Origin: an uncultured Pseudomonadota bacterium
GTDB lineage: Bacteria > Myxococcota_A > UBA796 > SXON01
DNA length: 64,000 bases
Assembly (NCBI GenBank): GCA_903844155.1
Contig: CAIMSU010000070.1
Coordinates: 1 to 64,000, forward strand
Direction: 5' to 3'
Both the position numbers and the translations under genes were made by a program. The notes beneath the pieces are model-generated. The model was not told the DNA's origin and ran no database searches. It worked only from the letters and a program-made list of their open reading frames with translations. Positions 42,192 to 45,902 of this stretch are shown here, one piece after another (within the stretch, counting starts at the first letter, position 1; every line of letters begins with the position of its first letter).

Positions 42192-42755
42192 CTACCGCGT
42201 TCCGTCCGCTCCCCGACCCGACGCCCACTCCCGCATCCGACCCGCGTACGCCGCCCAGCCCGGCGCCGTCCGCTCCTCCGCGTAGCGACGGAACATCGTC
42301 CCAAGCATCCAGTGCAATTCCTCGTACAGGAACATCCGGTCGAGCAGGATCTCGGTCGGCTCGCCGGTCTTGACCTGCTGCGGGAGCTTGGCGCCGGAGA
42401 TCGCCACGTTCGGGCCGCGCAGGGTGACGCTGTACTCACGATCATCGCGGCGCAGCGCGAGTCGCAGGTCGCGGAGCACCTTTCCGCCGGCCAGCGCGGC
42501 GCGCGCCTCGGGCGTGGTCGACGGGTTGTCGCCCGTCAGCACCGCGTTGACCTTGTCCTCGCCCGCCGGCCGGAACGACAGGCGGTCGTCCACCCACCAC
42601 GAGAACGGCGAGCCGTCCGCAGGTTCGATGACGCCACGGCCAACCTCGCTGGCAAACCACAGGAAGAGGTAGAAATCACTCGCGATGTGCGGGGGCGTCT
42701 CGTTTTCCGGGGCGCTGTCGACACCGCCGCCCTCGTCGGAAGTCCTGTCGCTCAT
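42192..42755 (-). CDS. Conserved protein, possible C-terminal half of an RdgC-like protein
   Basis: 187 residues, no signal peptide. Short acidic N-terminus, then an alpha/beta domain (SDFYLFLWFASEVGRG, WWVDDRLSF, ALAGGKVLRDLRLAL, LPQQVKTG, MFLYEELHWMLGTMFRRY). This pattern recalls the C-terminal domain of long RdgC-family proteins, with a recurring GKxxxxARL and LERMxLxEEL block; that is my recollection and needs a profile search. The ATG overlaps the stop of the RdgC-like gene (ATGA), consistent with a split pair translated together. Confidence 0.6.
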   Translation of the reverse strand: MSDRTSDEGGGVDSAPENETPPHIASDFYLFLWFASEVGRGVIEPADGSPFSWWVDDRLSFRPAGEDKVNAVLTGDNPSTTPEARAALAGGKVLRDLRLALRRDDREYSVTLRGPNVAISGAKLPQQVKTGEPTEILLDRMFLYEELHWMLGTMFRRYAEERTAPGWAAYAGRMREWASGRGADGTR

Positions 42756-43387
42756 GCACCCTCCCGGGAGTCGCTGCTGCGCAGATCGGTGGAGCCGACG
42801 CTCAGGAGGCGCGCGGCCACGTCCGGAAGGTCGGCGACGTAGTCGAGCGGGGTGAACGGCATCAGCACGAAGCCGAAGGTCCGCAGGAACAACTTGCGGA
42901 ACCGGTCAGCCTGAGCCTCGGAGTGGCTGGTGAACAGCACCCAGCCCTCGTGCGTGTTCCAGATCACGTCCACGATGGTGATGCGGGGCAGCGTGCGCTC
43001 CAGCAGCTCCGTCTCCAACGCCTCGCGCAGCTCCGCCTTCACCGAGAACGGCACGCGTTCACGGTTGTTCGCCTTGCACCAGGCTTGCTGGCGTTTCTGG
43101 AACATTGCGCGGAACAGGGTCGCGGGGATGACCTTTTTATCGACGCGCATCGAGAACGTGGCGTACTGCTGGTAGAGCCAGTGGTTGACGTCGTCGAACT
43201 CGGTGTCGAGCAGGTTGTGGACCTGCGCCCAGCCGAGCCGCTCCTCCTTGTGGACTGCGGTGAGCGCGTCGCGAAACGCGTTCTGGTTGAGCTTCTCGAC
43301 CGCTTCGGCCGTCCAAAGCGCGTGGTCGGCGATCTCGCCCACGACCTGGAACCGACGCGCGGACAGGCCGCCCTTGAGCGCGCCCAT
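42752..43387 (-). CDS. RdgC-like recombination-associated protein (N-terminal type)
   Basis: 211 residues. The order of elements matches RdgC: an N-terminal FQVVGEI strand, MRVDKKVIPATLFRAMF, KAELREALETELLERTLPRI (the basic/acidic helix before LLPRAF in E. coli RdgC), IVDVIWNTHEGWVLFTS, and FRKLFLRTFGFVLMPFTPLD. RdgC forms a DNA-binding ring that limits RecA activity; here only one part is present and a second short gene follows. It overlaps the Hfq-like gene stop by one base (TGATG). No recA or other recombination gene lies adjacent. Confidence 0.65.
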   Translation of the reverse strand: MGALKGGLSARRFQVVGEIADHALWTAEAVEKLNQNAFRDALTAVHKEERLGWAQVHNLLDTEFDDVNHWLYQQYATFSMRVDKKVIPATLFRAMFQKRQQAWCKANNRERVPFSVKAELREALETELLERTLPRITIVDVIWNTHEGWVLFTSHSEAQADRFRKLFLRTFGFVLMPFTPLDYVADLPDVAARLLSVGSTDLRSSDSREGA

Positions 43388-44229
43388 CAGCTCTTTCCCG
43401 GGTGCGCGTGCTCACCCTTGCGGGCCTCGGCGGCGTCTGCGAGGGCGTGCCGGAACACCACCAGCTCGGCGCCCGCCCGGGTCTTCAACCCGATCTCGAA
43501 CCGTGAGAACCACGCGATCTCCCCGGTGTACACCTCGCCCTCCATCGTCGCCAGCCGGACCTGTGTCTTCTGATCCCACCAACCGCCGATCTTCCTGTCG
43601 GAGCAGGCGTAGCGGTCTTGCGGCCGCAACCTCGGCTCGGCCGCCTGGGCGCGCAGGTCCTTGTCGTACTCGAGGTGCTTTCGGATCGCCTTGTAGTCCG
43701 CCGGCGCGAAGGCATATTTGACCGTGGTCTTGTGGATCATCTCAGGTTCGCCGGGCCCCGCGTCGCGCACCTCGCGCACCTCCACCTCGTACTTGTCGTT
43801 TCGCACGAAGACGACCTGCCGGGTTGCCTGGCCGTACACGCCGATCGACCAGGTGGGGCCGATCGAATCGAAGATCGTGCGGCTGCTGTGCTCCTTCACG
43901 TAGGCCTCGATCCGGCGCTTGCTCAGCACCGCCGCGAGGTCGGCATGCCCCATCGCAACCTGCATCGCGAGCGAGGCCGGGATGTCGTGCAGCCTGGCGA
44001 TCCGCCCGGCTTCGTCCTCCCGCTGGAGCGCGATCACCGCCTCGTTCACGGTGAGCTGCCCGTTCGCCACAGCCTGCGCCGACGGCAACGGAAGGCCCTG
44101 CCGCATCAGCTCCTCCACCTTCTTCCGCCGGGCGATCGCTGCCGCGCTGAGCGGTGGCTTTCCGCCCTTGTGGTGGGGCTTTCCCGGGGTTCCCCCAAAC
44201 TGCTTCTTGCGTTCCTGCACCGGCACCAT
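43387..44229 (-). CDS. Protein with C-terminal Hfq/Sm-like domain
   Basis: 280 residues from ATG 44229 (longer readings run into the divergent gene). A basic N-terminus (QERKKQFGG, KPHHKGGK) precedes a helical segment (~20-110). Residues ~221-268 read TQVRLATMEGEVYTGEIAWFSRFEI-GLKT-VVFRHAL, matching the Hfq Sm1 (G-Q-I-x-x-F-x-x-F) and Sm2 (YKHAI) pattern closely. A second block (VVFVRNDKYEVEV … EMIHKTTVKYAF) at ~120-165 may be a degenerate Sm-like repeat. RNA binding is therefore plausible. It is the first gene of a three-gene operon with the RdgC-like pair. Not a known Hfq by length or layout. Confidence 0.65.
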   Translation of the reverse strand: MVPVQERKKQFGGTPGKPHHKGGKPPLSAAAIARRKKVEELMRQGLPLPSAQAVANGQLTVNEAVIALQREDEAGRIARLHDIPASLAMQVAMGHADLAAVLSKRRIEAYVKEHSSRTIFDSIGPTWSIGVYGQATRQVVFVRNDKYEVEVREVRDAGPGEPEMIHKTTVKYAFAPADYKAIRKHLEYDKDLRAQAAEPRLRPQDRYACSDRKIGGWWDQKTQVRLATMEGEVYTGEIAWFSRFEIGLKTRAGAELVVFRHALADAAEARKGEHAHPGKS

Positions 44230-44307: not shown

Positions 44308-45449
44308 GTGCTCGTACTGCTCCTCGCCGCCTGCCATCACGCGAAGGGCCCTGTCGCGCCCACCGTCGCCCCGCTGCGCTACACCCCCTGGCCCACGCTT
44401 GCGGACGTCGCCTGCGTTCCCACTGCCGCCGCCCCCCCGGCCACCACCTGCGTCGTCCTCGACCGCGACGGCCTCTGGCGCGTGTCACCGACCGATCTGC
44501 GCGTGCGCACAGCCATCGTCGGCCCGAACGCCGGCATCTCCGGCCTGCGCGTGGAAGCCGGCGTCATCCAGCTCGTCGGCGACTGCCCGGACGTCGGTCG
44601 GTGCGCCCGTCCCCTCGACGCCACCGATCCACCCACGCCGCCCGTCGGCCTGCCGCTGGCCGAGTCCACCCCCGCGCCCGAGGACACCGATGCCGACGCG
44701 CAGGGCGTCCTCTTCGCCCACCAGTTCACGGCCGCGACCCACCATCTCGACCGCATCGGCTTCTACCGGCTCGTCCTGACGCCCGACCAGGGCCGCGTCA
44801 CCCTGCTTCCAGGCGGCGGGTCCACGCTGCTCCGCACAGGCCACGGTATCAAGGCCGTCCGCCTCGGCCTGCCGGACGCCGTACAACCCTGGCCGGCCAC
44901 GCTCTCGCTCCACCCCACGGGCCAGGAGCTGTACGTCCTCGCCTGGCCGGACGGCACGCTCCGCGCGCTCGACCCGCTCACCCTCGCGCCCCACTGGTCG
45001 CTCCCGCTCGACGCCCCCGCGTTCGGGCTGTACGTCGATGGCGGCGGGCGCTACCTCGTCGGGGAATTGGGCGCGCTTGAGGCCCCACCGTCCGTCGCCG
45101 CCTTTTCGGCCGACGACCCGGCCGGGCCGACCTCCGCCCTCGACCGCATCGCTCCCTGGCCCGAGCCGAACGGGGCAACCGACGACGAGGTCCTCCGCGC
45201 GCTCGACGCCCCGCCCGCCGTCGCCACCTTCGTGGTCGACCTCGCCAACCGCAGCGTCGCGCTCGCGATCCCCGGTCGTCTGCGCCGCGCCGTCGCGATC
45301 CCCGCGAGCCCCGGCGAGGACGCTGGCCTCCTCGTCGCGACGACGGACGCCATCCAGTACATTGCGCCCTCCCCGCGCCCGCCCTCACAGGGCGCAGCGC
45401 CTGTCGCACCACCCCCTGTCGCCCCCTCCCCCCTTGCCCCGGCATCCCC

Positions 45450-45453
<4 letters not shown>
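44308..45453 (+). CDS. Lipoprotein, possible beta-propeller
   Basis: About 381 residues from GTG 44308 (LVLLLAAC, lipobox Cys at 9); the signal peptide is short and lacks a positive n-region, so the start is tentative. The body contains repeated FxLxVxxxG and LSLHPTGQELYVLAWPDGTL motifs that look like blades of a WD/YVTN-like propeller. No known function. The C-terminus is Pro/Ala-rich. It overlaps bcp by four bases. Only 78 bases separate it from the divergent Hfq-like gene. Confidence 0.6.

Positions 45454-45902
<449 letters not shown>

Follow-up and report, generated by a model that had tools for sequence, protein, structure and literature searches.

A tandem Hfq-like protein behind a helical-repeat domain, encoded in an uncultured bacterium of the phylum Myxococcota_A and in its relatives

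We describe a protein of 280 amino acids in which two diverged Hfq-like domains, designated here Sm1 and Sm2, lie in a single chain behind a helical-repeat domain. Its gene is located in the window analysed here, a stretch of 64,000 nucleotides (contig CAIMSU010000070.1) from an uncultured bacterium (GTDB lineage Bacteria; Myxococcota_A; UBA796; SXON01). The original prediction, made from this stretch by itself, was that an Hfq/Sm domain ends a larger protein in an unusual layout; the predicted fold, the profile searches and the conservation of the protein in dozens of species all bear this out. Beyond that claim, the analysis revealed the full tandem of Sm domains, the separate helical-repeat domain, and the fact that this is the sole gene of Pfam Hfq type in our sample of the phylum. 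By fold and profile the protein is a member of the Hfq/Sm superfamily; it does not qualify as a standard orthologue of Hfq, because its size, its number of domains and its scores against curated models all fail to fit one. Taken overall, we put the probability that it binds RNA in an Hfq-like manner at about 0.55, and that of a true sRNA chaperone role lower.

The reading frame opens with an ATG at 44229 and runs down to 43387, with in-frame GTG codons at 44340 and 44220 as alternative starts; a scan for a promoter and a terminator of this gene found none. A plus-strand open reading frame (611 aa from 43618) overlaps the gene and was rejected as a candidate, as it is the minus-strand frame that carries the conserved protein. 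The first part of the 611-aa frame is probably antisense, and a lipoprotein gene further right is apparently the true divergent gene. A probable lipoprotein gene separates the tandem Hfq-like gene from a gene for a divergent peroxiredoxin (AhpC/TSA), an arrangement also found upstream in a number of relatives. The whole chain was modelled with AlphaFold2 from an alignment of 46 relatives (mean pLDDT 91.6, pTM 0.79), and its parts follow one another as a basic tail, the helical-repeat domain (five helices, 29–114), Sm1, a linker and Sm2 (Table 1).

Table 1. Positions, within the window, of the tandem Hfq-like gene, its parts and the neighbouring genes
Feature	Position	Strand	Basis
Third gene, 187 aa	42192..42755	minus	position shared with relatives
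RdgC-like gene, 211 aa, directly downstream of the tandem Hfq-like gene	42752..43387	minus	Pfam RdgC, E 1.9e-11
Tandem Hfq-like protein gene, whole	43387..44229	minus	280-aa open frame and orthologues
Sm2, residues 204–271	43417..43620	minus	AlphaFold2, superposition, Pfam, PDB profile search
Linker, residues 176–203, two short helices	43621..43704	minus	AlphaFold2
Sm1, residues 98–175	43705..43938	minus	AlphaFold2 and profile searches
Helical domain, residues 28–97, two helix-GxP-helix-G repeats	43939..44148	minus	AlphaFold2 and profile comparison
N-terminal tail, residues 1–27, flexible, basic	44149..44229	minus	AlphaFold2 and charge count
Divergent peroxiredoxin (AhpC/TSA) gene	45450..45902	plus	

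Sm2, at the C-terminus, is an Hfq domain, with modest support from the single sequence and firm support at the level of the family. Residues 212–264 of the window's protein match Pfam Hfq_1 (PF21979) with an E-value of 3.8e-4 (21 bits) and residues 220–264 match Pfam Hfq (PF17209) with 0.07; neither score attains the curated threshold of 27 bits. The best-scoring NCBIfam model, the cyanobacterial Hfq-related NF047718, reaches 2.6e-5 (24.4 bits, cut-off 52 bits). As these scores all stay under the curated cut-offs, the protein is invisible to routine annotation, and the earlier claim of a close match between the block and Hfq goes too far for the window's protein alone. For the family the claim holds: among 30 relatives, Hfq_1 was matched in 19 and Hfq in 14 (best E 1e-6), one close relative scores 27.6 bits against Hfq_1, and in two relatives (G016 and G010) Sm2 lies above the Pfam Hfq cut-off. 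In a PDB search with the family profile, archaeal and bacterial Hfq proteins ranked first. The Sm2 profile was aligned to Hfq with a profile-profile probability of 94%, as compared with 0.9% at most for 40 column shuffles. The predicted domain has the five-strand Sm fold (helix 211–219; strands 223–228, 232–241, 245–250, 255–259 and 263–268), superimposes on E. coli Hfq with an rmsd of 0.8 Å over 58 residues (Z 6.9), and returned a Foldseek list consisting nearly entirely of Hfq structures.

The block preceding Sm2, in which a second and weaker Sm-like unit had been suspected, is indeed a second Hfq-like domain. In the AlphaFold2 model it likewise comprises a helix (98–114) and five strands (126–131, 135–144, 148–155, 163–166 and 170–174). 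A profile built from residues 112–178 of 39 members placed Hfq of S. aureus first in the PDB (E 8e-5), the top matches being the Hfq proteins of S. aureus, B. subtilis and Caulobacter (E 8e-5 to 2e-4). Profile-profile probabilities were 95.8% against a set of nine Hfq proteins and 95.9% against Sm2, the two domains of the chain sharing only 4% identity in the profile alignment; in one relative (G272), Sm1 by itself exceeds the Pfam Hfq cut-off with 28.1 bits. The controls stayed far lower: 2% or less for 40 column shuffles of the Sm1 profile, 0.2–0.3% for reversed profiles, and 0.2% or less when the N-terminal domain, RdgC or the product of the third gene was compared. A chance match to Hfq is ruled out by the shuffled and reversed controls and by conservation in 60 species.

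The roles of F42, K56 and H57 in the proximal U pocket of Hfq are established from solved Hfq–RNA structures. We aligned the predicted strands to set residue equivalences and counted conservation over 67 aligned members. The equivalents of F42 are Y147 in Sm1 and F244 in Sm2, those of K56 are K167 and R260, and those of H57 are T168 and H261. Position 147 is Y or F and position 244 is W, Y or F in every one of the 67 members, and K167 and H261 are invariant; R260 is present in all 46 members of the window's order (46/46), G133 in Sm1 is nearly invariant, and R206, just ahead of Sm2, is invariant across the 67. The histidine equivalent to H57 has been lost from Sm1 in the window's order, whereas outside it 16 of 21 members carry a histidine at position 168 and with it an intact Hfq-like K–H pair. 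From the conservation of these pocket residues it follows that the family retains the face with which Hfq holds U-rich RNA, split over two domains. The N28 position of Hfq is occupied by E or D in this family, the distal-face motifs also differ from those of Hfq, and in most members an acidic residue stands right after the pocket aromatic in both Sm domains.

The region ahead of the Sm tandem starts with a tail of low model confidence (pLDDT about 57–60 at its beginning), which carries a net positive charge in 45 of 46 relatives and commonly contains many G, P and R residues. The helical domain that follows was predicted with a pLDDT of 96.6 when modelled alone, and its two helix-GxP-helix-G copies resemble each other with a profile probability of 96.5%. 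Pfam gave only scattered chance matches for this domain, and among PDB folds Foldseek found none at E < 1 and VIA none with Z above 4.1, although this does not establish that the fold is new. Versions of 428–485 aa occur in one family (f45; L134–L137), in which the helical region at the N-terminus is extended while the tandem of Sm domains still closes the chain; judged by eye, this extended region holds additional similar motifs.

Homologues with the same layout, which the original prediction had proposed to look for, were found in 60 out of 71 class genomes, in almost all of them as a single copy; three genomes had two partial matches, located at contig ends. Among 356 genomes sampled from the phylum (Myxococcota-type MAGs), 84 carry the tandem Hfq-like gene. 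Named matches in public species genomes, obtained with an alignment as query (a pattern scan with the single protein gave none), belong to MAGs labelled Myxococcales, Myxococcota or Deltaproteobacteria, some of them clearly mislabelled. As no relative was found on plasmids, an origin from mobile elements was rejected. The Pfam search of the 356 phylum genomes yielded six PF17209 matches, every one at a tandem Hfq-like locus, and detected no ordinary Hfq besides this family. A search of 67 genomes of the class detected no ProQ, but CsrA in 21 of them, and both are absent from the window's own genome. In one of the families of the class (f9), the tandem protein is missing and no other Hfq was detected, so that the group can evidently do without an Hfq function. 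Myxococcus xanthus and other myxobacteria are reported to have no hfq homologue and yet to use the sRNA Pxr (PMC5684412). The tandem Hfq-like protein may be the substitute for Hfq in its host bacteria, and since neither Hfq nor ProQ is detectable, that of a general RNA chaperone is its most likely function. The family offers a concrete candidate sRNA chaperone for a sizeable part of the phylum.

In the window, the start codon of the RdgC-like gene touches the stop codon of the tandem Hfq-like gene. The 211-aa product matches Pfam RdgC with 44.2 bits (cut-off 25) over the N-terminal half of the profile only. The 187-aa product of the third gene has no match in Pfam, RdgC included, and its alignment with a single E. 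coli RdgC sequence is collinear but insignificant; this gene may encode the missing C-terminal part of an RdgC that has been split. In the window's order, 44 loci had enough flanking sequence, and in 42 of them the RdgC-like gene and then the 187-aa gene follow downstream; RdgC may be split there into two overlapping genes (211 + 187 aa). Owing to the overlapping start and stop codons, the three genes look co-transcribed, as an operon headed by the tandem Hfq-like gene. Elsewhere the neighbours change from family to family, and a universal gene neighbour was therefore rejected: a priA-like gene lies directly downstream or overlaps at eight loci (L121, L123, L126, L127, L129, L130, L132 and L133; PriA domains were confirmed by Pfam in L126) that belong to two other families, rsmD is the next gene in families f44 and f52, and f40 has rodA upstream. 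RdgC-like genes are also found in class genomes that have no tandem Hfq-like gene (f8, f9).

The mechanism we propose is that of a nucleic-acid-binding protein. Three chains probably assemble into a six-domain ring, which would be closed with pseudo-sixfold symmetry, Sm1 alternating with Sm2. Its Hfq-like proximal face would take U-rich RNA ends in pockets provided by Y147/K167 of one domain and W/Y/F244, R260 and H261 of the other. The helical domains and basic tails, joined at the helix side of Sm1, would project outwards from it, either to hold RNA or to bring in a partner. In bacteria with no detectable ordinary Hfq or ProQ, such a protein could act as the general sRNA- and mRNA-binding protein. 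In its most complete form, the proposal is of a phylum-specific Hfq replacement, in which a duplication-fused Sm pair would build a heterotypic ring of six domains from three chains, crowned by the helical repeats, would serve as the main sRNA chaperone of bacteria thought to lack one and, in some lineages, would be in physical contact with recombination proteins; this composite we advance tentatively, as less likely than not. A tandem of Hfq domains with helical repeats would be a bacterial counterpart of the eukaryotic Sm rings of mixed subunits.

Several observations speak against an Hfq-like role on RNA, namely the altered distal face with E or D in place of N28, the acidic residue after the aromatic, the missing H57 equivalent of Sm1, the family f9 with no detected Hfq of any kind, and the neighbours RdgC and PriA, which point to DNA rather than RNA. 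Both of these neighbours act in recombination-dependent replication, and a DNA role of the tandem Hfq-like protein therefore has to be weighed: as a recombination or replication-restart factor, its Sm ring would bind DNA or an RNA–DNA intermediate and work with RdgC, and in another lineage with PriA. Such a role would fit the operon with the RdgC-like gene in nearly all loci of the window's order, the adjoining or overlapping priA-like genes and the structure of E. coli Hfq bound to dsDNA (PDB 5uk7). We consider it unlikely, given that the pocket residues retained are the ones with which Hfq binds RNA, that RdgC-like genes occur without the tandem gene, and that other families adjoin rsmD, rodA or unrelated genes, so that the link to RdgC and PriA is not universal. 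The loss of the H57 equivalent from Sm1 in the window's order, along with the very low identity of the two domains, would also suit an arrangement with one Sm reduced to a pseudo-domain, where a tandem-Sm dimer or monomer, and no ring, would be active; this we regard as improbable, K167, Y147 and G133 being nearly invariant in Sm1 and the K–H pair being retained there in distant families.

Of the known families, the closest to Sm2 by single-sequence match is the cyanobacterial Hfq-related one (PF21979, NF047718), although those models describe one domain of about 60 residues and the window's protein scores below their cut-offs. Cyanobacterial Hfq works via the pilus base, where it binds PilB1, and has no demonstrated sRNA role (PMC4390875), and that its model should score best counts against the sRNA reading. 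It also lends something to the view that the Sm ring is a protein-interaction scaffold, docking other proteins as cyanobacterial Hfq does on the pilus ATPase (PMC4390875), and the extra helical-repeat domain is adaptor-like in kind. A scaffold is nevertheless doubtful, and slightly more so than a factor acting on DNA, as the basic N-terminal tail and the pocket aromatics, K167 and H261, kept in all 67 members, are what would be expected of nucleic-acid binding. Hfq-like binding of RNA is the reading we prefer.

Bacterial Hfq (PF17209) shares with the tandem protein the N-terminal helix and five-strand Sm fold of each domain and, in Sm2, an F42-type aromatic, K/R at K56 and H at H57, and in some relatives either domain is above the Pfam cut-off. 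It differs in having one Sm domain per chain instead of two (ordinary Hfq is a single domain of about 60–110 aa, working as a homohexameric ring on U-rich and A-rich RNA), in lacking the approximately 100 extra N-terminal residues and in its distal face; moreover, the neighbours miaA and hflX of bacterial hfq were not seen at the tandem loci. The archaeal Hfq-like protein MJ1435 of M. jannaschii (PDB 2qtx, 5dy9) provided the top PDB matches for Sm2 (E 0.0035 to 0.0048), but is a single domain of 71 residues. Literature searches for a tandem or fused Hfq found no description of such a layout. Another larger protein with an Hfq_1-type C-terminal domain was encountered in five genomes of the phylum (G059, G057, G219, G300 and G176; 3.1-kb loci L151, L153, L154, L157 and L158). 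It belongs to a different family and, unlike the tandem protein, has a single Sm domain: an FtsH-like AAA+ ATPase ends in an Hfq_1-like Sm domain that scores up to 30.5 bits, above the Pfam cut-off. Its open frames measure 516–650 aa, the M41 peptidase was not seen in them, and a site-2-protease-like gene adjoins in two of the loci.
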